Positions 36,947 through 57,068 of a stretch of 64,000 bases of DNA are shown here, piece by piece. A program made the position numbers and the translations under genes. This DNA comes from Candidatus Methylospira mobilis (GTDB lineage: Bacteria; Pseudomonadota; Gammaproteobacteria; Methylococcales; Methylococcaceae). The first letter of the stretch is position 1. Every line of letters starts with the position of its first letter. The notes below the pieces were generated by a model. It did not search any database. It had not been told where the DNA came from and saw only the letters and a program-made list of their open reading frames with translations. Location of the stretch: contig NZ_CP044205.1 of assembly GCF_009498235.1 (NCBI RefSeq), forward strand, positions 1 through 64,000, in the 5' to 3' direction.

Positions 36947-38650
36947 TTAACCTGCTACGTCAGTACTTTTCACAAAGGTTCGATAAGTCTGCATGCCTCC
37001 TGAAAGGATGCTCACTTGAAACCCTGCCTGCTTTAGCGTCCGTGCAGCATAATACGCGCGTTGGCCAACCCCGCAAACCAGGAGGATTTCCCGGTCTACC
37101 GGCAGTTCAGCCAGACGCTCCCGTAATGTTTCCAGCGGAATATTCAATGCATCCGGCATGTATCCGGCATCGAATTCAGCAGGGCTGCGAACATCCAGGA
37201 TCAATGCGTCGGTGTTGGATATATCGTTCCAGTTCGCCAGCGCCAAATCACCGCGAAGCACGTTGGATGCAATCATGCCGGCCATATTGACAGGGTCTTT
37301 GGCTGCGCCGAACTGCGGCGCGTAACAAAGCTCGAATTCTTCGAGATCGTAAACCGTTGCGTCCTGCATCATTGCTGTAGCAATGACGTCGATACGACGC
37401 GCGACATCAGCCTCGCCAATTGCTTGTGCGCCTAGAATTCGGCCATCCCGTACAGAGAACAGCAGCTTCATGTGAATCGGTTTCGCGCCTGGAAAATAAC
37501 TCACATGATGACCGGGGTGCAGAAACACGGCCTGAAAGTCTTCAATGCCTGCGCGTCTTAGCGCTTTTTCACTGACGCCGGTAGTGGCTACGGTGAGACC
37601 GAACACTTCGCATACGGCAGTGCCTAATATGCCATCAAAAGTCAGCGGGGGCGGTGCATCCTGGCCCGCCTTACATCTAAAGCCATAAATAATATGACTC
37701 GCGGCAATGCGCCCTTGCCGATTGGCTGGGCCGGCAAGCGGCATCAACTGCCATTCGCCCGTAATGCGGTTTTTTACCTCTACTACGTCGCCCACTGCCC
37801 ATATATTGGGATCACTGGTGTGCAGAAACTCGTCAACGCGAATACCGCCTCTTTCTCCCAGCTCCAAACTGCACTTTCTTGCTAACGATACCTCCGGGCG
37901 CACGCCAATTCCGAGGATGACCAAATCGCTCTCTATCGCTGATCCTCTGGATGTTTGTAGCGATAAACCCCCGCCTTCTTTGGCAGTAAATGCTTCAACA
38001 GCTTCGCCCAATCTGAGCTGCACACCGCAAGTTTGTAGCCGTTCGGCGACATAAAAAGCCATTTCAGGATCCAACGGAGGCAAAACCTGGTTGGCCAACT
38101 CCAGCACCGTGACTTTCAGTCCTAGCCCGGCCAGATTTTCAGCCATTTCCAAACCAATGAAACCGCCTCCCACCATTACGGCACTACCGGCGTTGGAAAC
38201 GGCTGCCTTGAGTTTTCGGCTATCGGGGATGGTGCGCACCACATGTATTCCGGGCAGATCGATTCCCGGTAAGGACGGCCTGATGGGCGTAGCTCCTGTC
38301 GCCAGAACCAAAGCATCATAGTGTTCGAAATCAACTTCGCCCGACCTCAGATCACGTACTTCGATCATGCGCGTCTCGCGGTTGATGGCAACCACTTCCG
38401 TTTCGGTTCTGACATCGATATTGAAGCGCTCACGAAACAGTTGCGGCGTCGCCACCAGTAGCTTGGCTTCGGACTGAATGACATCGCCGACAAAATACGG
38501 CAAGCCGCAATTCGCAAACGACACATGCGGCCCGCGCTCAAACAGGACGATATCGCAGTTTTCACACAGGCGTCGTGCGCGGGTAGCACAGGATGCGCCT
38601 CCAGCGACGCCGCCGACGATTAGAATGCGTTTCTTCTTGCCTGGGTTCAT
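36947..38650 (-). CDS. CoA-disulfide-reductase-like flavoprotein with C-terminal rhodanese domain
   Basis: The 567-residue protein joins an NADH-linked flavin disulfide reductase (residues 1-450, G-G-V-A-G-G-A-S at the start, redox Cys48 in F-A-N-C-G-L-P) to a rhodanese domain (about 465-560, active-site Cys in L-V-C-G-V-G-Q-R). The arrangement matches the CoADR-Rhd family, proposed to reduce CoA-persulfides or polysulfides. Reductase and sulfur-carrier activities on one chain fit the sulfur theme of the region at 48-57 kb. It is a single gene. Confidence 0.92.
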   Translation of the reverse strand: MNPGKKKRILIVGGVAGGASCATRARRLCENCDIVLFERGPHVSFANCGLPYFVGDVIQSEAKLLVATPQLFRERFNIDVRTETEVVAINRETRMIEVRDLRSGEVDFEHYDALVLATGATPIRPSLPGIDLPGIHVVRTIPDSRKLKAAVSNAGSAVMVGGGFIGLEMAENLAGLGLKVTVLELANQVLPPLDPEMAFYVAERLQTCGVQLRLGEAVEAFTAKEGGGLSLQTSRGSAIESDLVILGIGVRPEVSLARKCSLELGERGGIRVDEFLHTSDPNIWAVGDVVEVKNRITGEWQLMPLAGPANRQGRIAASHIIYGFRCKAGQDAPPPLTFDGILGTAVCEVFGLTVATTGVSEKALRRAGIEDFQAVFLHPGHHVSYFPGAKPIHMKLLFSVRDGRILGAQAIGEADVARRIDVIATAMMQDATVYDLEEFELCYAPQFGAAKDPVNMAGMIASNVLRGDLALANWNDISNTDALILDVRSPAEFDAGYMPDALNIPLETLRERLAELPVDREILLVCGVGQRAYYAARTLKQAGFQVSILSGGMQTYRTFVKSTDVAG

Positions 38651-45176: not shown

Positions 45177-46300
45177 TCAATAAAGACTATGCCGGCCTGC
45201 AACAATCCTTGCTTCCGTTACCGGTCCCCAGATCACACGATAAACCCAACGCGTATAAAGCAGTACGATCGGTAAAAATACCAACGTAATCCAGAAAGCC
45301 CATAGCAGAGTCAAATGACTGGACGTGGCGTCCCACAGGGTCAAACTGGAATTCGGATCGGTCGAGGAAATAAGCAGAAACGGGAACAGGCCGAAACCAA
45401 GCGACAGCAGAATGTCGGCTACACCCAATGAGGCCAGCACGAAAGCCAGCCAGGTAGCCTGAGTTTTCGCAATAATCCACGCGCCGAGTAAGCCGCCTAT
45501 ACCCAACAACGGCGCAATCCACATCCATGGATTGGACGCGTAGTGCTTAAACCAGGCTCCGGAAGGCGACATTACCACTGTTTTCGTCAACGGGTTGGAT
45601 GGGGCAAAACCACCCAATGATTGCGTTATTTCGGGACGCGCCATACCGGTGAGCATCCAAAAAGCAATGATTCCTACAAACAGGACCAGCAACGGCCCCA
45701 GGACAGCGCCCGCACCACACCTTCTGTGCGCCATTTAAGAAATATAGCCCCCTGAAACAGGGTCAGCAGCAAGCCGGTTACACCGCAAAAGAGCGCAAAC
45801 GGGCTCAACAAGGCCCAGAAGGAACCGGTATAAAATGAGCGCAACTCCGTATCCAGATGAAAGGGCAAGCCAATCACCAGGTTGCCGACGAGCACACCCA
45901 ATAGAATGGGCGGTAACGCGCCGCCGGCAAACAAACCCCAGTCCCAAGCATTACGCCACGCAGGACAGGTCAATTTGCTGCGGTAATCAAAGCCGACCGG
46001 ACGGAAAAACAGCGCGAACAGTACCAGCAACATGGCGGCGTAAAGCCCGGAGAACAGTGTTGCGTAGACGGGCGGCCAAACAGCAAAAATAGCGCCGCCC
46101 AGCAGTACCAGCCAAACCTGATTGCCCTCCCATACAGGACCAATGGTATTGATAATCACGCGACGCTCGTTGTCGCTGCGTCCCAGGAACGGCAATAATG
46201 CGCCCACACCGAAATCGAAGCCTTCGGTTATCGTGAAAACAATCGCAACAGTGCCAATCAGTATCCACCAGATCAAACGAATTGTTTCGTAATCAAACAT
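45177..46300 (-). pseudogene. cydB: Cytochrome bd oxidase subunit II, frameshifted
   Basis: The first ~190 residues (46300 to about 45725) read as normal CydB: M-F-D-Y-E-T start, G-F-D-F-G-V-G and G-P-V-W-E-G-N-Q-V-W-L. The frame then reaches a premature TAG. A second frame (45734 down to 45177) continues the protein with [10 protein letters not shown] and ends in H-S-L-Y like E. coli CydB. The switch is at about 45705-45720, near a GCGGGCGC run, and adding one base restores a ~375-residue subunit. Without correction the oxidase would lack half of subunit II. Confidence 0.9.
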
Positions 46301-46321
46301 GATGAGTCTCCCTGTCGCCGA

Positions 46322-47905
46322 TTATGTGCGGGCAGTAGCAGCAGGCACGGAAGACGTGTTCTGCTCAAAATGATAGTTTCCGGTATGCAGACTACTGGGA
46401 CCCAGGCGCGCATACTTGAACATGAGAAACAATTCGACCACCAGCAATAGGGTATAGAACAACAGGAACCCTCCGATGCTGAACCAGAGCTGATCGGTAG
46501 TGACACTGGACACACTCAAATGCGTCGGCAGAACTCCGGAAATTGTCCAGGGTTGGCGACCGAATTCAGCAACAAACCAGCCGGTTTCAGCCGCTGTCCA
46601 GGGCAATGGAATGCACCACACCGCCATACGCAGCAACCAGCGCTTTTGATCTGCCACGCGAGTCGAACAATAATAAAACGCCATGGCAAAAACAAACAGC
46701 ATGGTAAAACCGCATGCCACCATAATACGGAAGGTCCAAAACAGCGGCGCTACTTTCGGAATAGTGTCGTTCGCCGCCATGGCGATCTGCTCGTCATTGG
46801 CATCGACTACCTGGGGCGTATATTTTTTCAATAACAACCCATAGCCCAAATCGGCTTTATGCGCCTCGAACACATGGCGTACTTCCTGACTCTTGTTTCC
46901 ACCATGCATTTTTTGTAAGGCGCCGTAGGCAACCATGCCGTTGCGTATCCGCAAGAGGCTATCCTGTTTAAGCTGTTTTAATCCTTTGACCTCTTCGTCT
47001 ATCGAGCGCGTGGCGATCAAACCGAGTACGTAAGGAATTTTGATGGCCCAACGGGTTTTCTCAGCCTGCTGATCCGGAAAACCTACCAGGGTAAAACTGG
47101 CCGGGGCCTTTTCCGTTTCCCACTCGGCCTCAATTGCAGCCAGTTTTGATTTTTGCGTTTCTCCCTGGGTATATCCGCTTTCATCTCCCAGTACAATCAC
47201 CGACAGTATCGAGGCGAATCCGAATGCCGTTGCGATGGAAAACGAGCGTCGCGCAAACGCAATATCGCGCTGGTTCAGCAAATACCAGGAGCTGATACCC
47301 AGAACAAACATGGAGGCAGTCACATATCCCGCCGCAGCGGTATGAACGAATTTTACCTGGGCGACCGGGTTAAAAATCACCTCGGCAAAACTCGTCAATT
47401 CCATGCGTAAGGTTTCATAATTAAACTCAGCGCCGACCGGGTATTGCATCCAGCCATTGGCGATCAATATCCACAGTGCCGACAGACTGGTGCCCAGCGC
47501 CAAAAGCCAGGTCACAGTCAAATGCTGCACCTTGCTTAGACGCTCCCAACCGAAAAAGAAAAGCCCGACGAAAGTGGATTCCAGAAAAAACGCCATCCAG
47601 GCCTCGCTCGCCAGCAGTGGCCCGAAAATATCGCCTACATAATGCGAATAATATGACCAGTTGGTGCCGAACTGGAACTCCATGGTAATACCGGTGGTGA
47701 CACCCATCGCAAAATTGATACCGAACAGTTTGCCCCAGAATCTGGTCATATCGCGATAGACTTCCCGGCCTGTCATCACGTAAACCGATTCCATGATGGC
47801 CAATAAGAATGTCATTCCGAGCGTGAGCGGGACAAACAGAAAATGATAAAGCGCAGTCAAGCCAAACTGCACCCTGGAAAGCAATACAACTTCATCACCG
47901 GACAT
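46322..47905 (-). CDS. cydA: Cytochrome bd ubiquinol oxidase subunit I
   Basis: The ~527-residue subunit carries haems b558, b595 and d and oxidises quinol. It has the axial His near residue 20 (Y-H-F-L-F-V-P-L-T), the G-W-M-Q-Y-P-V-G segment and a long Q-loop (about 250-380) as in the E. coli type. The ATG at 47905 has GGAGGA eight bases upstream. It is the first gene of cydABX. The enzyme gives high-affinity, sulfide- and nitric-oxide-tolerant respiration, which suits the sulfide:quinone-reductase-like gene just upstream. Confidence 0.95.
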   Translation of the reverse strand: MSGDEVVLLSRVQFGLTALYHFLFVPLTLGMTFLLAIMESVYVMTGREVYRDMTRFWGKLFGINFAMGVTTGITMEFQFGTNWSYYSHYVGDIFGPLLASEAWMAFFLESTFVGLFFFGWERLSKVQHLTVTWLLALGTSLSALWILIANGWMQYPVGAEFNYETLRMELTSFAEVIFNPVAQVKFVHTAAAGYVTASMFVLGISSWYLLNQRDIAFARRSFSIATAFGFASILSVIVLGDESGYTQGETQKSKLAAIEAEWETEKAPASFTLVGFPDQQAEKTRWAIKIPYVLGLIATRSIDEEVKGLKQLKQDSLLRIRNGMVAYGALQKMHGGNKSQEVRHVFEAHKADLGYGLLLKKYTPQVVDANDEQIAMAANDTIPKVAPLFWTFRIMVACGFTMLFVFAMAFYYCSTRVADQKRWLLRMAVWCIPLPWTAAETGWFVAEFGRQPWTISGVLPTHLSVSSVTTDQLWFSIGGFLLFYTLLLVVELFLMFKYARLGPSSLHTGNYHFEQNTSSVPAATART

Positions 47906-48254
47906 ATGAATTTCCTCCATTGAGTTTTGGATCGTAGTCGCCTGTATCTGCTGCTGACGGCCTCACAAAAATGACCGCCGCAACATCGGTCGGCGACGTT
48001 TTCCCGTCGTGGCGGAAAAACACAGCCCACAATCCACACAGCAACACGATCTTCACAGCAAATACCAGGGAGAACTCTTTTTTCAGCGAGTAAACAGACG
48101 AGGTAGGTACGAGCTTCTTCTCGGGTTTTGGAAAAAACTACTGCTTTTTGTTTTTCTTTCCAACGCAAAAACACCAAGCTGTTGAAAGTGTCCTTCGACT
48201 AGCACTTGATATTCTGGTCGAAGGAATCGTTAAAACCTCGTATCAGGTATTGAA
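47906..48254. other. Gap between the SQR-like gene and cydA, with a small hairpin
   Basis: No gene is supported in 349 bp. CCTTCGAC (48192-48199) pairs with GTCGAAGG (48217-48224) across 17 bases, just downstream of the SQR-like stop. It has no T-run, so it may be a repeat element or a weak end-of-transcript structure. The rest presumably contains the cydA promoter. Confidence 0.5.
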
Positions 48255-49538
48255 TTACTGTGGCGGCTTTTTCTTCAGGCGCAGGATCCCCATGGCTTTC
48301 AGGGGGAGTCGTTCGTAAATAGGTTCACTGACGCCCTTGCGGACCTTGCGCATGAAGTATTTTTCATACGCTATTTTGGCCCAATGTACCCAACGTCCTC
48401 TCGAAGCCCACTGCACATTACGCGGAGGGATTTGCGGCATGGCCAGGAAAGCAACGCCGGAATCACCAAAGTCGGCCAGGCACAATGCATTCCAGGTACC
48501 CTTGTGGTCAGGCTCCTTTCCATCCAGTTGTGCGCGTATATTATGAGCCGTCGCAGTCACCATGGACTCGATCATATAACCCGTTTTGGGTGTGCCGGTG
48601 GGTACAGGCGTCTGCTCCAAGGGTGGAATGGCAATACACACACCAACCGAGTAAACATTCTTATAGGTAGGATTGCGCTGATGTTCATCGACGATAACGA
48701 AACCACGCGGATTAACCAGCTTTTCAATACCAAGCAGCGCATCAACACCTTTGAAGGCCGGTAACATCATGCTGTGCTTGAAAGGCAGTTCGTGCTTTTT
48801 TTTCTCCTGACCGTTGTCATCTACTTCAGTGACATACATCATGCCATCTTCGATTTTGTCGACTTTGGCATTGCAAATCCAGTTGATGTGCTTGTTGCGC
48901 AGCTCGCTTTCGAGCATGCCTTTCGTATCGCCCACGCCACCGAGCCCCAGATGACCTATGTAGGGCTCTGCGGTGACATAGGTCATTTTGACCTTGTCAC
49001 GTATTTTCCGCTTGCGTAGAGCGGATTCAGCGATAAAAAGGTATTCATACGCGGGACCAAAACAGGATGCGCCTTGTACTGCACCTATCACGATGGGGCC
49101 TGGGTCCTCAACAAATTTGCTCCAGAACACGCCAGACTCACCTGCGTGATCGACATGGCACACGGACTGGGTGTACCCATTCGGTCCCAGTCCCGGTACT
49201 TCATCGAATGCAAGCTTGGGTCCGGTAGCAATGATCAGATAGTCATAATCCACATGCTCGCCGTTAGCGAGTTCAACACGGTTATTCTCTGGCAGAAACC
49301 GCGTTACCTTCTGCTGAATAAACGTAATTTTTTTCTTTTTGAAAACCGGCGCCAACTCGACCTTGATATCGGAGGGTTTCCGCCAGTTCACTGCTACCCA
49401 AGGATTTGATGGCACAAAATGAAAAGTGGGGGTGTCGGCAATAACGACAACCTCATCCTGTTTGCGGGCGCTTTCCTTCATTTCAAAAGCCATAGGAATA
49501 CCTCCTATACCCGCACCGACAATAACGATTTTTGCCAT
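48255..49538 (-). CDS. Sulfide:quinone oxidoreductase-like flavoprotein
   Basis: The ~427-residue FAD protein starts with V-G-A-G-I-G-G-I-P-M-A-F-E. Cys159 (in G-A-S-C-F-G-P-A-Y-E) and Cys301 (in V-G-V-C-I-A-I) fit the conserved pair that forms the sulfide-oxidising disulfide in sulfide:quinone reductases and flavocytochrome c relatives. It would pass electrons from sulfide to quinone at the inner membrane. I chose the ATG at 49538 behind GAGGAA, because the longer frame to 49721 overlaps psiE. Cytochrome bd lies just downstream as a possible electron sink. Confidence 0.88.
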   Translation of the reverse strand: MAKIVIVGAGIGGIPMAFEMKESARKQDEVVVIADTPTFHFVPSNPWVAVNWRKPSDIKVELAPVFKKKKITFIQQKVTRFLPENNRVELANGEHVDYDYLIIATGPKLAFDEVPGLGPNGYTQSVCHVDHAGESGVFWSKFVEDPGPIVIGAVQGASCFGPAYEYLFIAESALRKRKIRDKVKMTYVTAEPYIGHLGLGGVGDTKGMLESELRNKHINWICNAKVDKIEDGMMYVTEVDDNGQEKKKHELPFKHSMMLPAFKGVDALLGIEKLVNPRGFVIVDEHQRNPTYKNVYSVGVCIAIPPLEQTPVPTGTPKTGYMIESMVTATAHNIRAQLDGKEPDHKGTWNALCLADFGDSGVAFLAMPQIPPRNVQWASRGRWVHWAKIAYEKYFMRKVRKGVSEPIYERLPLKAMGILRLKKKPPQ

Positions 49539-49644
49539 GGTTTTTTCCTCGGTTGATATGGCTAAACTGCCTTTATTATGTCTTCTTTTGCAACCAGTAC
49601 CATTTTTGATAGTTACTGAAGCGGCTGCTTCCCCAATAACTTTG

Positions 49645-50115
49645 TTACCATCTGCACGCGATGTCAGAGCCTTGTTTACTCTGGTCTTCGGTTGTTCCGC
49701 GCCCATCTTCAGGGCAACCATATCTATGTGAAGTAAACGATAGTACTAAAATCGCCAGGCTTAATACCGCTATTGCTCCAGTGATACTCAAGAGTAGATA
49801 GAGGTGAAACTCGTTGGAGACCTTTTGCACATCAATTACCAGATGCCGTGATAAGGCCGTAATAGCGATGTAGATCAGAAACTGTACGGGTAACCGCAAC
49901 GTTCTAAAATAAATGCCAACCATCGCACCCAGCTCAAGGTAAATAAACAAGAGCAGGATATCTTCCAGCGTGGCATGACCGGCTTTCATCATTTCGATAT
50001 AGTCGTGTAATGCCGACCAGACTATCGTGGAACCGATGCAGAACAAGGCCAGAAAATGGAACATGTCCACCAGAGTATCTCCGGTTTTTTTGACTATGCG
50101 GTGTCTATCGTTCAT
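49645..50115 (-). CDS. psiE: PsiE-like inner-membrane protein
   Basis: The 156-residue protein has four predicted helices and the PsiE pattern (E-D-I-L-L-L-F-I-Y-L-E-L-G-A-M-V, R-H-L-V-I-D). PsiE was named for phosphate-starvation induction in E. coli, and its biochemical role is unknown. The C-terminal ~25 residues are polar and vary. It ends about 107 bases upstream of the SQR-like start, on the same strand, so co-transcription is possible. Confidence 0.82.
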   Translation of the reverse strand: MNDRHRIVKKTGDTLVDMFHFLALFCIGSTIVWSALHDYIEMMKAGHATLEDILLLFIYLELGAMVGIYFRTLRLPVQFLIYIAITALSRHLVIDVQKVSNEFHLYLLLSITGAIAVLSLAILVLSFTSHRYGCPEDGRGTTEDQSKQGSDIACRW

Positions 50116-50260: not shown

Positions 50261-51484
50261 TTATTCCACTGGAAACTCGCCCTTATTGAAATGCAACTCG
50301 TTGAATGTCCATTTATAGTGCGCCGCATGCATATCGCTGAGACCTTCATTTTCCAGAATTTGCAGGTTGGCCATCACCTCCATTGATAGCTCGGAAAGTG
50401 TTCGCATAGGGGTTGTAATATCCTCCATGGTCGCCCCGTCACCCACCAGCTTTACCAGTAATTCGCCTACATTATGAAATTGGCAATGTGGTTGTTCCAG
50501 ATCATGGAAAACCTTTCTATCCCGAAACAGCTGCCCTTCCTTGTAATACCATTGCCCCAACCGGCATTCATGGCATGATAAGGGGGGAACTTTGAGGTAT
50601 TTCCGGTAAGGTGAGTTTTTAGGGTAAGACACCGCCTTGATCAATTCGCTGACCAGCTTCCTTCTCCACTGCACATGGTCCAGGCTAGCCATGTGAATCA
50701 GTCCGACCGGCAGACCGGACCAACGATTGTCTGCCTTCACAAAGGAAATATATCGATCCAGCGGGAGCGCTTTGCTGATCCAGAATCCCTGAATTTTGGT
50801 GCAACCGCTTTCCAGTAAACGGTGGTATTGATCACTGTTTTCCACGCCTTCGGCGATGACGCTGATTCCAAGCTCATGCGCCATGCGGGTGGATGTCTCG
50901 ACGATGGTCATGTTTTTATCCGAATCAAGCATTCTGCTGATGATGCCTTGATCCAGTTTGATGGAGGTGAACGGCCATTTGCTGAGCGTATCCAGGGACG
51001 AGTACCCGGTACCGAAGTCATCCATTACCAATCCCAGGCCGGCCTGCCGCAACGGCAGGATATGCTGTTTGAGACTATCGCCTGCTTCCAAAGCGGCGGT
51101 TTCCACTAACTCTACTTGCAGCCTTTCGGGCGCCACCCCAAACGTTTCAAGCGAGTCCAGCACCGTCTTTGTAAATGCGTCATTCTCGAAATCCTTGGCT
51201 GAAGTGTTGAAAGACACTGATAACGTATCCACATCCTGCAACACCATCAGATCATTCACCAGCTTGGGGAACATGTGGCGGGTGATTTCTGTAATCAGTG
51301 ATGACTGTTCCGCCACAGGGATAAACACACCCGGCAGTACAATTGAACCATCAGGTTTTATCCACCTGATCAGTGCTTCAGCACCCACCACCCTTCCGGT
51401 AATCAAGGAAACCTTGGGTTGATAAAAAAACGTGAATTCGTCTTTTTTTATGGCGTCAATGATTTCGATTTCTGTCACTATCAT
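50261..51484 (-). CDS. EAL cyclic-di-GMP phosphodiesterase with C-terminal CZB zinc-sensor domain
   Basis: The 407-residue soluble protein has an EAL domain (1-250) with the catalytic set intact: A-E-A-L-I-R-W, F-N-T-S, V-E-L-V-E-T, D-D-F-G-T-G-Y-S-S-L, K-L-D and A-E-G-V-E. A CZB domain follows (about 265-400) with His270 (D-H-V-Q-W), Cys307 (H-E-C-R-L-G-Q-W) and His near 328 and 332 (Q-P-H-C-Q-F-H). In E. coli DgcZ the same sensor controls a cyclase through zinc. Here it is joined to the opposite activity. It is a single gene next to the copper oxidase. Confidence 0.92.
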   Translation of the reverse strand: MIVTEIEIIDAIKKDEFTFFYQPKVSLITGRVVGAEALIRWIKPDGSIVLPGVFIPVAEQSSLITEITRHMFPKLVNDLMVLQDVDTLSVSFNTSAKDFENDAFTKTVLDSLETFGVAPERLQVELVETAALEAGDSLKQHILPLRQAGLGLVMDDFGTGYSSLDTLSKWPFTSIKLDQGIISRMLDSDKNMTIVETSTRMAHELGISVIAEGVENSDQYHRLLESGCTKIQGFWISKALPLDRYISFVKADNRWSGLPVGLIHMASLDHVQWRRKLVSELIKAVSYPKNSPYRKYLKVPPLSCHECRLGQWYYKEGQLFRDRKVFHDLEQPHCQFHNVGELLVKLVGDGATMEDITTPMRTLSELSMEVMANLQILENEGLSDMHAAHYKWTFNELHFNKGEFPVE

Positions 51485-51539: not shown

Positions 51540-53459
51540 CTATTCCACCAGGAATTCGCGCATCATGCCCATGTCTTCGTGTTCCAGATTATGGCAATGA
51601 ACCATGAACACGCCTTTATATTCCTTGTAGGGCTTGATAATACGAACTTTCTCACCCGGCATGACCAGTACCGTATCCTTCAGGCCGCTATCAATAAAGC
51701 CTTCACGCACGGTAGCGTAATCCGCAGACTCTTCCGCGCCGATGGTGCGGCTGATGATCTGGAACGGATCTTCATGTATATGGATAGGGTGCGCCATCGA
51801 CATCATCATGCCCATACCACCCATACCACCCATACCACCCATACCACCCATACCACCCATACCACCCATACCACCCATATCACCCATACCATTCATCATG
51901 CCCATACCACCGCCCATGGCGTGCATGCCCTGCTCTGAGTTTTCCGCGTCATCATGACGCATCTCGGCCTTCGCTCCGGATTGCACGTCATCGCCATGAC
52001 TCATCGGCGCTTTATCTTCGTCTTGACCTGCTGCAGCTCCATGCCCGCCTTTACCGCCATGCGCATGGAAAATTTCCATCAATTGCAGCGTACCGAAAGG
52101 TATGCGCTCGCCATCCATAAAATCGTTAGGCGCATAGGGCCGTCCATTGAGCAACATTGCTCCAGGTCCCTCGGAAATGCCAAGCGCTACCGGCTTGCTG
52201 GGGTTGGCGGTATCGCTCACTCGATATCGGTTGATTTTACTCAAATGCGTCGGCAGATTCGGATTCTCGCTCACCTGACGGCTTACTCGCACGGTAAAAA
52301 TGGGGTATTCGCTTCCCAGCGGCAATTTATTGCGCATCATTGCACGCATACCGCCCATCATGGCATGTTCGCCGCCTTGTTTATCTCCCTCGGTCTCATG
52401 TCGCATGCCCCCTGCATTTCTACCCATCCCTGCCATTTCTCCACGCATCATACGCTCAGCCATTTTCGGTAACGCACCACTGAAAGTGCTGCTACGCATG
52501 ACCAGCTGCGAACCGAGCTTGCGCGCACTGAAATCGGCCCATACATCAATGCGCTCGCCGGGAGCCAGCATGACATAAGGTTTATGCACCGGCGTTTCCA
52601 ACAATCCGCCGTCAACACCTATCACAGTGATCGGCATGGCGTCATCCCAGGCCAGTTTGTAAATGCGCGCGTTCGATCCATTGAGAATGCGCAGTCGATA
52701 GGCTCGGCTGGCCACATCGATACTGAAGTCGGGGCGGCCATTAACCAGGATACGGTCGCCGTGAAAACCGATCATGCGATCATGCATGTTACGCGCATAA
52801 ATCAACTGGTTTTGTTCATCGAATAATCGATCCTGAATAACGATGGGTATTTCGTATTCCCCGGCAGGCAGATCCAGCTTTTGCTCTTCCGGGTCGCTGA
52901 CCATAATGGCGCCGGCCAAGCCATGATAGACCTGCTTGCCGGTGATTCCATGCGTATGAGGATGGTACAGAATCATGCTGGCGCGGTTGCGCATTTCGAA
53001 TTCGTAAACAAAGGTTTGCCCCTTGTCCAGCGCGTACATGGGATGACCGTCCATCAGGGCGGGCACGCTCAGTCCATGCCAGTGGGTAATGGTCGGCTCG
53101 TCCAACTCGTTACGCAGATGGATACGGATTTTCTGCCCTGTCTGGAAACGCATCAGCGGCCCCAGATAAGAATCGGGCAGCGCCGCCAAAGTGTTGTCCG
53201 GGCCATTGATCAAACGACCTATGTACTGCTGCACCTGCGTGGGCTGGCCAGGAAGAATATGCGCCGTACCGGGCCGGCAAATCAGCTCGAGCTCCACATC
53301 GGGTTTAAAGAGAGGCGATGCCTTGTTAGGCGCCATTTTGGGCATCATGCCCACCCCCTCCATTGCATGCAGCCATGTACTCCCTCCTGTATAAGCCAGC
53401 AGGCCCAAGCCTGTTTGGGCAAGAAAACGACGGCGTGAATGATTGATAAAACCTTGCAT
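51540..53459 (-). CDS. Periplasmic multicopper oxidase (CopA-type), Tat-exported
   Basis: The 639-residue enzyme starts with a twin-arginine signal (H-S-R-R-R-F-L-A-Q-T). It has the four copper-binding blocks H-W-H-G, H-P-H-T-H-G, H-P-I-H-I-H and H-C-H-N-L-E-H-E-D-M-G-M-M. A long Met/His/Gly-rich stretch (about 440-540) lies directly before the third block, including seven exact M-G-G units. Met-rich loops in CopA/CueO-type enzymes bind Cu(I), so copper oxidation or detoxification is likely. Manganese or another substrate cannot be excluded. The five-heme cytochrome gene is 105 bases upstream on the same strand. Confidence 0.93.
   Translation of the reverse strand: MQGFINHSRRRFLAQTGLGLLAYTGGSTWLHAMEGVGMMPKMAPNKASPLFKPDVELELICRPGTAHILPGQPTQVQQYIGRLINGPDNTLAALPDSYLGPLMRFQTGQKIRIHLRNELDEPTITHWHGLSVPALMDGHPMYALDKGQTFVYEFEMRNRASMILYHPHTHGITGKQVYHGLAGAIMVSDPEEQKLDLPAGEYEIPIVIQDRLFDEQNQLIYARNMHDRMIGFHGDRILVNGRPDFSIDVASRAYRLRILNGSNARIYKLAWDDAMPITVIGVDGGLLETPVHKPYVMLAPGERIDVWADFSARKLGSQLVMRSSTFSGALPKMAERMMRGEMAGMGRNAGGMRHETEGDKQGGEHAMMGGMRAMMRNKLPLGSEYPIFTVRVSRQVSENPNLPTHLSKINRYRVSDTANPSKPVALGISEGPGAMLLNGRPYAPNDFMDGERIPFGTLQLMEIFHAHGGKGGHGAAAGQDEDKAPMSHGDDVQSGAKAEMRHDDAENSEQGMHAMGGGMGMMNGMGDMGGMGGMGGMGGMGGMGGMGGMGMMMSMAHPIHIHEDPFQIISRTIGAEESADYATVREGFIDSGLKDTVLVMPGEKVRIIKPYKEYKGVFMVHCHNLEHEDMGMMREFLVE
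51813..51875. repeat. Seven perfect 9-bp tandem repeats inside the copper oxidase
   Basis: The unit CATACCACC repeats seven times exactly, followed by one variant copy (CATATCACC) and a degenerate end. On the coding strand each unit gives Met-Gly-Gly (or Gly-Met-Gly). Because the unit is a multiple of three, copy number changes keep the reading frame. It also creates an apparent His-Thr-rich frame on the plus strand, which is not real. Confidence 0.97.
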
Positions 53460-53563
53460 GTAACCTCCTTTCGGGCGGTATCGCCTCTTTAATAAGTTTA
53501 ATTTAGTGTGCTATCAGGAGACTTAATCTGGAAAAGTGAGTTTGTACCTCCGGCAAATGGATT

Positions 53564-55636
53564 TTAATAACGTGCATCCATAGGTTTTTTATCTTTCGGC
53601 CAATCCTTCGTCTTGCCGGGAAAATCCGGGCGCGGCTGGTGCGTGAAATACGCTGCCACATCGACGGCATCCTGCTCCGAAATACCGCCTTGTCCCAGCG
53701 GGAATTTCTGATGGAATCCGACCGGCATATTGGACAGAACAAAGGCCGCCGCAGTGTAGGTGCGCGCCATACCGGCGCCGATATTGAACGAATCGTCACC
53801 CCACAGCGGCGGGTAGATAACGCGGCCCTCAGCCTGCCTTGAGCCCTGGCCGTCGTTGCCATGACACACCTCGCACTGCGTGGCGTATACCTGCCTGCCG
53901 TTTTCCACGTTGGGTTTGAGCGACATATCCACCTTGCCGACGCCGCGCCCGGCGATCTTGTCCTGCGATCTGATGTCCTTTTTCATCCAGTCGAAATAGG
54001 CCACCATCGCTTTCATGCTCTCTGAATCCATTGGCAGCGGTTTACCGTTCATGGAGCGCTCGAAGCAACCGTTGATGCGCTCTTCGAGCGTGATGATCCG
54101 CCCGGAACGCGCGGCATAACCGGGAAAAACAGCGGATACGCCAAGGAACGGCGAAGCGTCCGCCACCGTACCCACATTGAGATGACAACTGGTGCAATTC
54201 AGGGAACTGCCAACGTTCTGCGGCAACAGCGCCCGAGTTTCAAGATGCAGGCGCATACCCTGTATTAATTGCCCGGCATTGGGGCTGGTCAGCATGTCCG
54301 CCAGACGCGGCGTGTCAAACAGAGCAGCATCAGTAATATTGGAATTGAGGTGCGCGCGCATCTTTTTTATTTGGGACGCGGTTATCGGTTCAGCATGATG
54401 GCCCCAAATGGCACGCACGAAGTTCAGGATTTCCGCAAGTTCCTGATCGGACAGCCGGGCGAAGGCAGGCATGGCGTAGACGCGTGGGTGCGCGGCAGTT
54501 TCAGCCGTTTTCCCGCCCGTCAGCATGATATGCAGCAGCGTGGACGGATCGGCAGAGTTAAGCGTCGGATTCTGCATCAGCGGCGGGAACATATCTTTCA
54601 CTCCCAAGCCATCCTGACGATGACAGGCCACGCAAAACTGAACGTACCCCAGACCGCCACGCGTCGTATACAGATCGGTCGGCACTGTCGCTGCGCCGGT
54701 ACTCTCCGGTATTGGCTGTTCGTTTTCGCCCGGCGGCAGCGATTTCAGATAGGTGGCAATCGCGGTTCGATCGGCGTCCGTGAAGTGTTGAGTGCTGTGG
54801 TGAATCACCTCCGCCATGTTGCCGGAAACCGTAGTAAAACGGTTTTTTCCTGTTTTCAGCAGATAGGCGGTGTCTTCCACCTCCCATAAATTCCGCAGAC
54901 TGCGCGCATGCCACGCTTCAACCGTTTCGCCCGCAAGATAGCGATTGCCATGGGAATCCGCATCGCTCATTGCCTTCTCCTGGAAAGCAATGCCGCGTGG
55001 CGTGTGGCAGGCACCGCAGTGTCCCAGCCCCTGCACCAGATAAGCGCCCCGGTTCCAGACAGCATCCTTTGTAGTATCCGGCTTGAAGGACTCAGCATCC
55101 AGAAACGCCGCGTTCCAGAATGTCAGGCCCCAGCGCATACTGAACGGCCAGCGCATCTCCGACGGCTGGTTGGGCTGATTGATCGGTGCCAGACCTTGCT
55201 GAAGGTAGGCATACAAGGCGCGCATGTCGTCTTCGCTCATTTTGGCATAGGAGGGATAGGGCATGGCAGGGTATAAATTATGCCCGTCTGCAGTCACCCC
55301 CTTGCGCATGGCTCGATCGAATTGCGCAAATGAATATTTACCGATGCCGGCCTGGGTGTCCGGCGTGATGTTGGTAGAGTAAACCTTGCCGAAGGGCGTC
55401 GGAAACTCGCGACCGCCCGCCATTGCCGCTCCCTTATCCGCAGTGTGACAAGCAATGCAATCCCCCAGATGCGCCACATATTCGCCGCGCTTGATCAAAG
55501 CAGCTTCCTTTTCGGAAATCATAGGCCCCTGCACGGTTATATGCGTGTTGGGAATCGCCGCTTCAGTCGCTTGAGCGTTATAGCCCCAACAAAGATATGC
55601 GCCAAAAATAGACATAACTAAATAGCTAATCTTCAT
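53564..55636 (-). CDS. Five-heme cytochrome c: alcohol-dehydrogenase cytochrome subunit fused to thiosulfate dehydrogenase-like domain
   Basis: The 690-residue periplasmic protein has a signal peptide (about 1-24) and five CxxCH motifs: C-I-A-C-H (~60), C-G-A-C-H (~206), C-V-A-C-H (~334), C-T-S-C-H (~480) and C-E-V-C-H (~586). The first three, with N-I-T-P-D and M-P-Y-P-S, match the triheme subunit of membrane alcohol or gluconate dehydrogenases. The last two, with L-E-E-R-I-N-G-C-F-E-R-S-M-N-G, match diheme TsdA. The fusion suggests thiosulfate or sulfite oxidation feeding a cytochrome chain. No dehydrogenase large subunit is nearby. Confidence 0.87.
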   Translation of the reverse strand: MKISYLVMSIFGAYLCWGYNAQATEAAIPNTHITVQGPMISEKEAALIKRGEYVAHLGDCIACHTADKGAAMAGGREFPTPFGKVYSTNITPDTQAGIGKYSFAQFDRAMRKGVTADGHNLYPAMPYPSYAKMSEDDMRALYAYLQQGLAPINQPNQPSEMRWPFSMRWGLTFWNAAFLDAESFKPDTTKDAVWNRGAYLVQGLGHCGACHTPRGIAFQEKAMSDADSHGNRYLAGETVEAWHARSLRNLWEVEDTAYLLKTGKNRFTTVSGNMAEVIHHSTQHFTDADRTAIATYLKSLPPGENEQPIPESTGAATVPTDLYTTRGGLGYVQFCVACHRQDGLGVKDMFPPLMQNPTLNSADPSTLLHIMLTGGKTAETAAHPRVYAMPAFARLSDQELAEILNFVRAIWGHHAEPITASQIKKMRAHLNSNITDAALFDTPRLADMLTSPNAGQLIQGMRLHLETRALLPQNVGSSLNCTSCHLNVGTVADASPFLGVSAVFPGYAARSGRIITLEERINGCFERSMNGKPLPMDSESMKAMVAYFDWMKKDIRSQDKIAGRGVGKVDMSLKPNVENGRQVYATQCEVCHGNDGQGSRQAEGRVIYPPLWGDDSFNIGAGMARTYTAAAFVLSNMPVGFHQKFPLGQGGISEQDAVDVAAYFTHQPRPDFPGKTKDWPKDKKPMDARY

Positions 55637-55749
55637 TGCTGCGTACCTGGAAATAGACGTTCAAACTGGAGCATACCTGCATAAGCCAATAGCCCCATGC
55701 TTGTTTGAGCAAGAAAGCGACGACGCGAATGGCTTATAAAGCTTTACAT
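55633..55749 (-). pseudogene. Relic of the multicopper oxidase 5' end
   Basis: Read from the ATG at 55749 this gives M, then a TAA stop, then S-F-I-S-H-S-R-R-R-F-L-A-Q-T-S-M-G-L-L-A-Y. This is nearly the Tat signal of the copper oxidase at 53459 (F-I-N-H-S-R-R-R-F-L-A-Q-T-G-L-G-L-L-A-Y). The upstream bases also resemble those before the real gene (a shared T-C-G-C-C-T-C-T-T-T). The similarity ends near 55670, and the frame finally stops on the cytochrome ATG. It looks like a partial duplication now decayed. Confidence 0.85.
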
Positions 55750-56098
55750 ATAACCTCAGGTTCAAACAGACTCGCCTCTTTTATTAATCTATTCGGCTGC
55801 TTGGGTCACAGGCTTCAATGGTATATTAGTATATTTGTTTTTACTATTATTTTGAGCGGTTTGTTAAAGGTGGTCTAAGCCCAAACCGCCGAGAATTCCG
55901 TATATTTCGTAAGTAAATGAAAAATAATATGTATAGCAAAAACGGTCGTTAACCAGCACACGTCTTGGTTATGTCAAATACGTGTCAAAGCATAGCTAAA
56001 CTGTATGGTTTTCAACCTAAAATCAGGTTAAGACTGAACGCTTGTGCAGCAGCCGGAATTTTCGGCGGTTAGGGCGCACACACCCTTAAAGCGAACGC
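55750..56098. other. Gene-free region upstream of the relic and cytochrome
   Basis: 349 bp without a gene. The part next to the relic (55750-55800) resembles the region upstream of the copper oxidase and may carry a duplicated promoter. Further on it is AT-rich with no clear motif. Confidence 0.45.
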
Positions 56099-56650: not shown

Positions 56651-56684
56651 ACTGTTTCCGATTAAAACCGTTATCACTTCCCCC

Positions 56685-57068
56685 TCAGAGCCAACCGAGA
56701 CGGTTGCAAGCACCATAAACAAGATACGCTCCAATACCGCAAACAAAGACTCCAAAGATGAGGCGGAGGTACGGGCCTGCCATTTGGTTGGCGAAGTAGG
56801 CGCCAACCCATGCGCCAAGGAACATGGTTACGGCCAGAATGAGGGCGGCTCGTACATCTACATTCCCGTGTCGGTAATATTCGAATGCTGCGGCAAGACC
56901 GATGGGGGGAAGCATCACGGCAATGGTGGTTCCCGTAGCCATGTGGTGTGAGAAACCGGCCCAATAAATCAGCGCCGGTACAATGACGATTCCCCCGCCA
57001 ATACCAAAAAAGCCCGCTGCCAAGCCGCCTAGTATGCCAATCGCTACAATTATGAGCCATGAGGGCAT
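56685..57068 (-). CDS. Half-size TauE/SafE (TSUP) membrane permease
   Basis: The 127-residue protein has about four helices and the G-x-F-G-I-G-G-G-x-x-x-V-P-A-L TSUP signature near the N-terminus. Full TSUP sulfite/sulfonate exporters are about 250 residues with this unit twice, so this one must work as a dimer or is a truncated half. The ATG at 57068 has GGGAGAA ahead. Its place beside sulfide- and thiosulfate-type genes fits export of an oxidised sulfur compound. Confidence 0.85.
   Translation of the reverse strand: MPSWLIIVAIGILGGLAAGFFGIGGGIVIVPALIYWAGFSHHMATGTTIAVMLPPIGLAAAFEYYRHGNVDVRAALILAVTMFLGAWVGAYFANQMAGPYLRLIFGVFVCGIGAYLVYGACNRLGWL

Follow-up and report, generated by a model that had tools for sequence, protein, structure and literature searches.

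What does a gene do that sets five heme-binding motifs in one reading frame, and which way would its electrons run? The question is raised by a stretch of 64,000 nucleotides from Candidatus Methylospira mobilis (positions 1 to 64,000 of contig NZ_CP044205.1; hereafter the window), in which an initial annotation had described a fusion of an AdhB-type triheme cytochrome with a TsdA-type diheme domain at 53564..55636 on the minus strand, the strand of all window features given below. The product is most likely a periplasmic, reversible pentaheme thiosulfate dehydrogenase/tetrathionate reductase in which an AdhB relay takes the place of TsdB, as judged by comparison with known modules.

Module architecture of the pentaheme protein

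The frame is intact and encodes 690 aa from an ATG start, with CxxCH motifs beginning at residues 60, 207, 335, 481 and 588, as first described. Above cut-off, Pfam recognised a single SoxA-TsdA domain (PF21342) and three stretches of cytochrome c, while no NCBIfam model reached its cut-off, so the whole protein has no named NCBIfam family. Residues 41-428 (54353..55516; CxxCH 60/207/335) match the triheme subunit of quinone alcohol dehydrogenase in the PDB (AdhB, 8gy2_B; E 4.9e-103) as well as those of glucose dehydrogenase (8hdd_B) and fructose dehydrogenase (7w2j_C), and this homology, together with conserved distal methionines (Met125, Met274 and Met389), marks them as a predicted AdhB-type electron-transfer module. 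Residues 455-678 (53603..54274; CxxCH 481/588) match the thiosulfate dehydrogenase TsdA of A. vinosum (AvTsdA; 4wqc, phmmer E 1.6e-53) and likewise the TsdBA of Marichromatium purpuratum (MpTsdBA; 5lo9), and PDB homology, PF21342, fold and conservation together indicate a TsdA-type diheme catalytic module. The five-motif layout is evidently not due to chance, because both halves have solved homologues almost end to end and because 63 other full-length sequences keep the five motifs in the same order.

The N-terminus (approximately residues 1-23, ...NAQA/TEA; 55568..55636) resembles a signal peptide by inspection and hydropathy. Most family members have a similarly cleavable-looking signal peptide, while the Thioclava, Ideonella and Rhizobium copies have a longer hydrophobic N-terminus, and a crude hydropathy scan found no strong hydrophobic stretch beyond the first heme. 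The alignment to AdhB, FdhC and GdhB, with which the fusion shares three heme domains and the conserved distal Met, ends 43-56 residues short of the C-terminus of the known subunits, and TsdA lies there instead. In the cytochrome subunit of fructose dehydrogenase, the C-terminal end is hydrophobic and is taken as a membrane anchor. The signal peptide, the longer hydrophobic N-termini and the loss of the AdhB C-terminal region suggest that the fusion is periplasmic and anchored, at most, at its N-terminus.

Conserved residues and predicted fold

The catalytic residues of TsdA are retained in the fusion. Arg109, Arg119, Cys123, Ser127, Gly221 and Arg224 of AvTsdA (precursor numbering), whose functions have been described (PMC4423706), align with Arg510, Arg520, Cys524, Ser528, Gly622 and Arg625 of the window protein, and all six are invariant in a 28-member alignment. 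With Asn636-Met637, these key residues lie within 53603..54274 and were placed by alignment to 4wqc, 4wq7 and 5lo9; the Cys524 codon (54065..54067), aligned with the active-site Cys123, is predicted to encode both the axial ligand of the active-site heme and the catalytic thiol there. Cys524 and Met637, as well as the distal Met125, Met274 and Met389 of the AdhB part, are invariant across all aligned full-length fusions (n = 64 sequences: the window gene, 59 from genome contigs and 4 from plasmids; the alignment has 65 rows, with the window gene entered twice).

Residues 430-690 were modelled apart (49 sequences; mean predicted local distance difference test score, pLDDT, 72.1), and a Foldseek search with this model ranked nine TsdA/TsdBA chains first, with SoxA far behind; the top match was 4wq9 (E 4.4e-18, 41% identity, TM-score 0.74 by target length). 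A C-terminal part without the TsdA fold or the active-site ligand would have counted against the initial annotation, and by this model and the alignment neither is lacking. With TsdA of A. vinosum (4wq7) and Campylobacter jejuni (CjTsdA), residues 455-678 share the fold, the His/Cys ligation of heme 1, the substrate-binding Arg/Arg/Ser and the distal Met of heme 2. In contrast to these enzymes, the module is fused behind a triheme module, and an Asn precedes the heme-2 Met where AvTsdA has Lys. This Asn-Met pair was considered as a mark of tetrathionate reduction, as in CjTsdA, whose heme 2 is His/Met-ligated at +172 mV (PMC6879331), and was rejected because the oxidation-biased MpTsdBA and the free TsdA beside fusions share it. 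MpTsdBA is also similar in carrying its TsdA catalytic domain C-terminal to a covalently joined cytochrome c part, but its TsdB is diheme, giving four hemes in total rather than the five obtained with an AdhB-type triheme partner, and no tsdB adjoins the window gene.

Distribution and split versions of the family

The architecture sought in other genomes proved to be no one-off. Scanning one genome per species identified 66 related loci, most with a full-length fusion; as the scan was built on six short peptide patterns, family counts are lower bounds. Hosts included Zoogloea, Azospira, Pseudomonas, Massilia, Cupriavidus, Delftia, Acidovorax, Rhodoferax and two Methylobacter metagenome-assembled genomes (MAGs), and plasmid copies were found in Ideonella, Cupriavidus metallidurans (pMOL30), Thioclava, Rhizobium and Burkholderia. 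Nearer to the window, none of 36 searched genomes of its organism's family gave a full-length match, and in a sample of 369 from the class, no other genome combined the two halves in a single frame at E 1e-30. Sequence comparison thus shows the AdhB-TsdA fusion to be a genuine family with scattered members among the beta-, gamma- and alphaproteobacteria and on some plasmids, and the patchy distribution suggests horizontal transfer. Annotated copies are labelled merely 'c-type cytochrome' or 'cytochrome C', and the open full-text literature searched describes TsdA and TsdBA but yielded no AdhB-TsdA fusion, with the founding TsdA papers lying outside that set.

The same pairing also occurs as two adjacent genes. 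In one genome (G332; loci L087/L129), overlapping genes encode a 464-aa triheme and a 308-aa diheme protein, and on plasmid pBEN of Paracoccus versutus (L120), the two proteins are 446 and 299 aa, with a 4 bp gene overlap. In a TsdA-domain tree, both split proteins group with the fusions as a TsdA subgroup that is separate from AvTsdA and the further free TsdA sequences included (100/98, with a long-branch warning). In the AdhB-domain tree, the fusions form one clade (100/99). They are joined in a wider clade (100/99) by Gluconobacter AdhB and the split versions, and there the split pair does not come out as the closest sister group of the fusions. Given these tree positions, a single origin of the AdhB/TsdA pairing is no more than plausible. 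A separate locus (L133, 7442-10453, minus strand) encodes a 1003-aa protein that has three CxxCH motifs and resembles AdhB, with a 160-aa ferredoxin-like protein encoded ahead of it; the larger protein is apparently a further catalytic protein into which an AdhB module has been built.

Gene neighbourhoods of homologues

Clustering of neighbouring genes over the 66 loci revealed few recurrent partners. One was a TtrSR-like pair, a sensor kinase carrying a PhnD-like domain plus a regulator of the LuxR type, which was present within the fetched flank of 17 of the 66 loci and lies directly downstream of the fusion on the Thioclava, Ideonella and Rhizobium plasmids (three annotated copies). Among NCBIfam models, TtrS (NF040750) fitted the four tested kinases best (300-333 bits over almost the full length) but below its cut-off of 750, which leaves tetrathionate, thiosulfate or another compound as their possible ligand. 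Both tetrathionate and thiosulfate are known to be sensed by kinases of the PhnD type (TtrS and ThsS, respectively; PMC5408782), and in Vibrio parahaemolyticus tsdBA is directly activated by TtrRS (PMC11293645), a precedent for such a regulator-enzyme linkage. The ttrRS-ttrBCA-tsdBA cluster of that species (PMC11293645) similarly places a TtrS-like kinase and a LuxR-type regulator beside a TsdA-type enzyme, but no ttrBCA is annotated beside the three plasmid copies examined (no dedicated ttrBCA search was made), and it is the pentaheme protein that adjoins the regulators. Allowing at most one mismatch, the Vibrio-type ttrR box occurred upstream of the fusion at 9 of 20 TtrSR-linked loci versus 5.2 expected from shuffles, and at 3 of 43 other loci versus 8.2 expected.

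Other neighbours also concern sulfur compounds. Genes for a diheme TsdB-like protein and TsdA follow the fusion in 13 loci, and one further locus (L086) has the TsdB and TsdA pair with no intact fusion within the fetched stretch. In L069 and L070, an octaheme cytochrome of the tetrathionate reductase family (TIGR04315, above cut-off) stands beside the fusion, along with a rhodanese and cydAB; being near-identical, the two count as one observation. They are filed under Porticoccus and Rhodocyclaceae MAGs, and such near-identity under two organisms suggests that one of them is mis-binned.

Proposed function and direction of electron flow

While module identity, conserved ligands and catalytic residues, the missing AdhB C-terminal region, the lack of a recurrent dehydrogenase partner and the TtrSR linkage elsewhere can be read from the sequences, from these we infer the enzymatic activity, heme-to-heme transfer, redox partner and direction. 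The TsdA module would interconvert two thiosulfates and tetrathionate at the His/Cys524-ligated heme, and the second TsdA heme, with Met637 as distal ligand, would pass electrons to or from the AdhB-type module. The latter would substitute for the separate acceptor TsdB and link the active site to the respiratory chain through the quinone pool or periplasmic cytochromes. The electron conduit from thiosulfate or polysulfide initially proposed thus keeps its sulfur role, given the invariant residues and the TtrSR, TsdBA and octaheme neighbours elsewhere, but nothing points toward polysulfide, and flow may run toward tetrathionate instead.

Where TtrSR accompanies the gene, tetrathionate reduction has a slightly better than even chance of being the physiological direction, a lean that rests on this linkage and on the second set of TsdB and TsdA beside the fusion. 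The tetrathionate/thiosulfate couple lies at +198 mV (PMC5146829), so electron transfer from quinol to tetrathionate would be downhill, and thiosulfate oxidation would need cytochrome c or an oxidase as acceptor.

Several observations weigh against the proposed function as a whole. AlphaFold modelled the full-length protein poorly (mean pLDDT 61.6), and neither the module interface nor the heme spacing was taken from that model. Most Pseudomonas and Burkholderiales loci are without TtrSR in the fetched flank, and an exact Vibrio-type ttrR box (GTGG-N4-CCAC) was found upstream of the fusion genes in none of 63 loci. In the window's genome (4.70 Mb, one contig), there was no match to SoxB or to the PhnD-type sensor half of Zoogloea-type TtrS, so the window's own context lends little sulfur support. 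For the window's organism, in which no such sensor half was found, we lean in neither direction. It is probably an aerobic-looking methanotroph, as its genome encodes two AMO/pMMO-family genes with equal scores and three pyrroloquinoline quinone (PQQ) alcohol-dehydrogenase-family genes above cut-off.

The strongest alternative keeps the same anatomy and differs only in direction: TsdA would oxidise thiosulfate in vivo, and the AdhB hemes would deliver the electrons to cytochrome c or quinone, as an energy-yielding or detoxifying branch comparable to TsdBA. Electrons normally enter AdhB modules from a catalytic subunit, which suits this direction, as does the aerobic appearance of the window's organism. 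In addition, the oxidation-biased fusion MpTsdBA (PMC5146829) has the same Asn-Met pair at heme 2, and the TtrRS-controlled TsdBA of V. parahaemolyticus oxidises thiosulfate (PMC11293645). However, TsdB and TsdA already stand beside the fusion in 13 loci, suggesting a different job for the fusion itself, and reduction of ubiquinone from a couple at +198 mV (PMC5146829) would be uphill. Thiosulfate oxidation is a serious contender, which we place somewhat short of an even chance.

Far less probable is that the AdhB half works for an organic dehydrogenase whose gene lies elsewhere, with the TsdA half vestigial or limited to electron transfer. The strong AdhB family resemblance and the three PQQ alcohol-dehydrogenase-family genes are in keeping with this, but the catalytic residues of TsdA do not vary among the aligned fusions, the AdhB C-terminal region is missing, and no dehydrogenase large subunit recurs across the 66 loci or adjoins either the window gene or any annotated plasmid copy. 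The absence of an obvious large subunit had already been remarked upon in the initial annotation, and the next gene downstream encodes a CueO-like multicopper oxidase. Similarly improbable is another sulfur substrate such as polysulfide, sulfite or a SoxYZ-like thiol carrier, for which SoxA as a relative and the SQR-like and CoA-disulfide-reductase/rhodanese genes of the window might speak, but the fusion reached only 44.8 bits with the SoxA NCBIfam model (cut-off 110) and the window's genome has no SoxB match.

Genomic context in the window

The fusion holds the sole SoxA/TsdA domain found in the window's genome, and an Otr-type octaheme was not matched elsewhere in it (control genomes gave no match either, so that absence does not follow). 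Downstream of the fusion, on the same strand, lie genes for the CueO-like multicopper oxidase (51540..53459, 104 bp away; NF008205 236.8 bits, below the cut-off of 525), a protein joining an EAL domain to a CZB zinc-binding domain (50261-51484, two genes downstream), PsiE, an SQR-like flavoprotein (48255-49721) and cytochrome bd (cydAB, 45177-47920). The SQR-like gene, TauE-like permease and cytochrome bd of the initial annotation are thus all present in the window, but the first is below every NCBIfam cut-off, the second (about 56674-57060; PF01925 positions 122-237) is half-size, and cydB is frameshifted. A frameshift near 45700 breaks the cydB gene (45177-46300) into overlapping frames of 208 and 185 aa, which cover TIGR00203 positions 1-198 and 211-378, and reflects either a sequencing error or real inactivation. 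A second half-size TauE-like match occurs elsewhere in the genome (C1:2629255-2629602).

For the most part, this arrangement is not conserved. Neither the multicopper oxidase nor SQR was matched beside the fusion in other loci, the EAL-CZB protein gave weak matches only, and cydAB alone of the downstream neighbours recurs elsewhere (L069/L070); SQR, multicopper oxidase and EAL neighbours were accordingly rejected as functional partners. Just upstream of the fusion is a decayed 82-bp copy of the start of the multicopper oxidase gene (55676..55757), 79% identical to its partner at 53386-53467 and with a stop immediately after its ATG, so that the fusion is flanked by this copy and the intact gene start. 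Further away, a CoA-disulfide-reductase-like flavoprotein with a C-terminal rhodanese domain (36947-38650) is possibly a persulfide reductase.

Implications for tetrathionate and thiosulfate metabolism

The known partners of TsdA are diheme TsdB or soluble cytochromes, and the fusion would give it a different, covalent partner, one familiar from the oxidation of sugars and alcohols, in hosts such as Pseudomonas, Zoogloea, Cupriavidus and Methylobacter MAGs. A bolder reading, less likely than not, is that the pentaheme protein is an all-c-type-heme tetrathionate reductase fed by quinol or cytochrome, which with TtrSR would form a minimal, partly plasmid-borne three-gene cassette for tetrathionate respiration that differs from TtrABC, Otr and TsdBA. 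With the TtrSR-linked copies, the direction of electron flow can be put to a direct test, and the known range of tetrathionate and thiosulfate redox metabolism would, if the proposed function holds, be widened.
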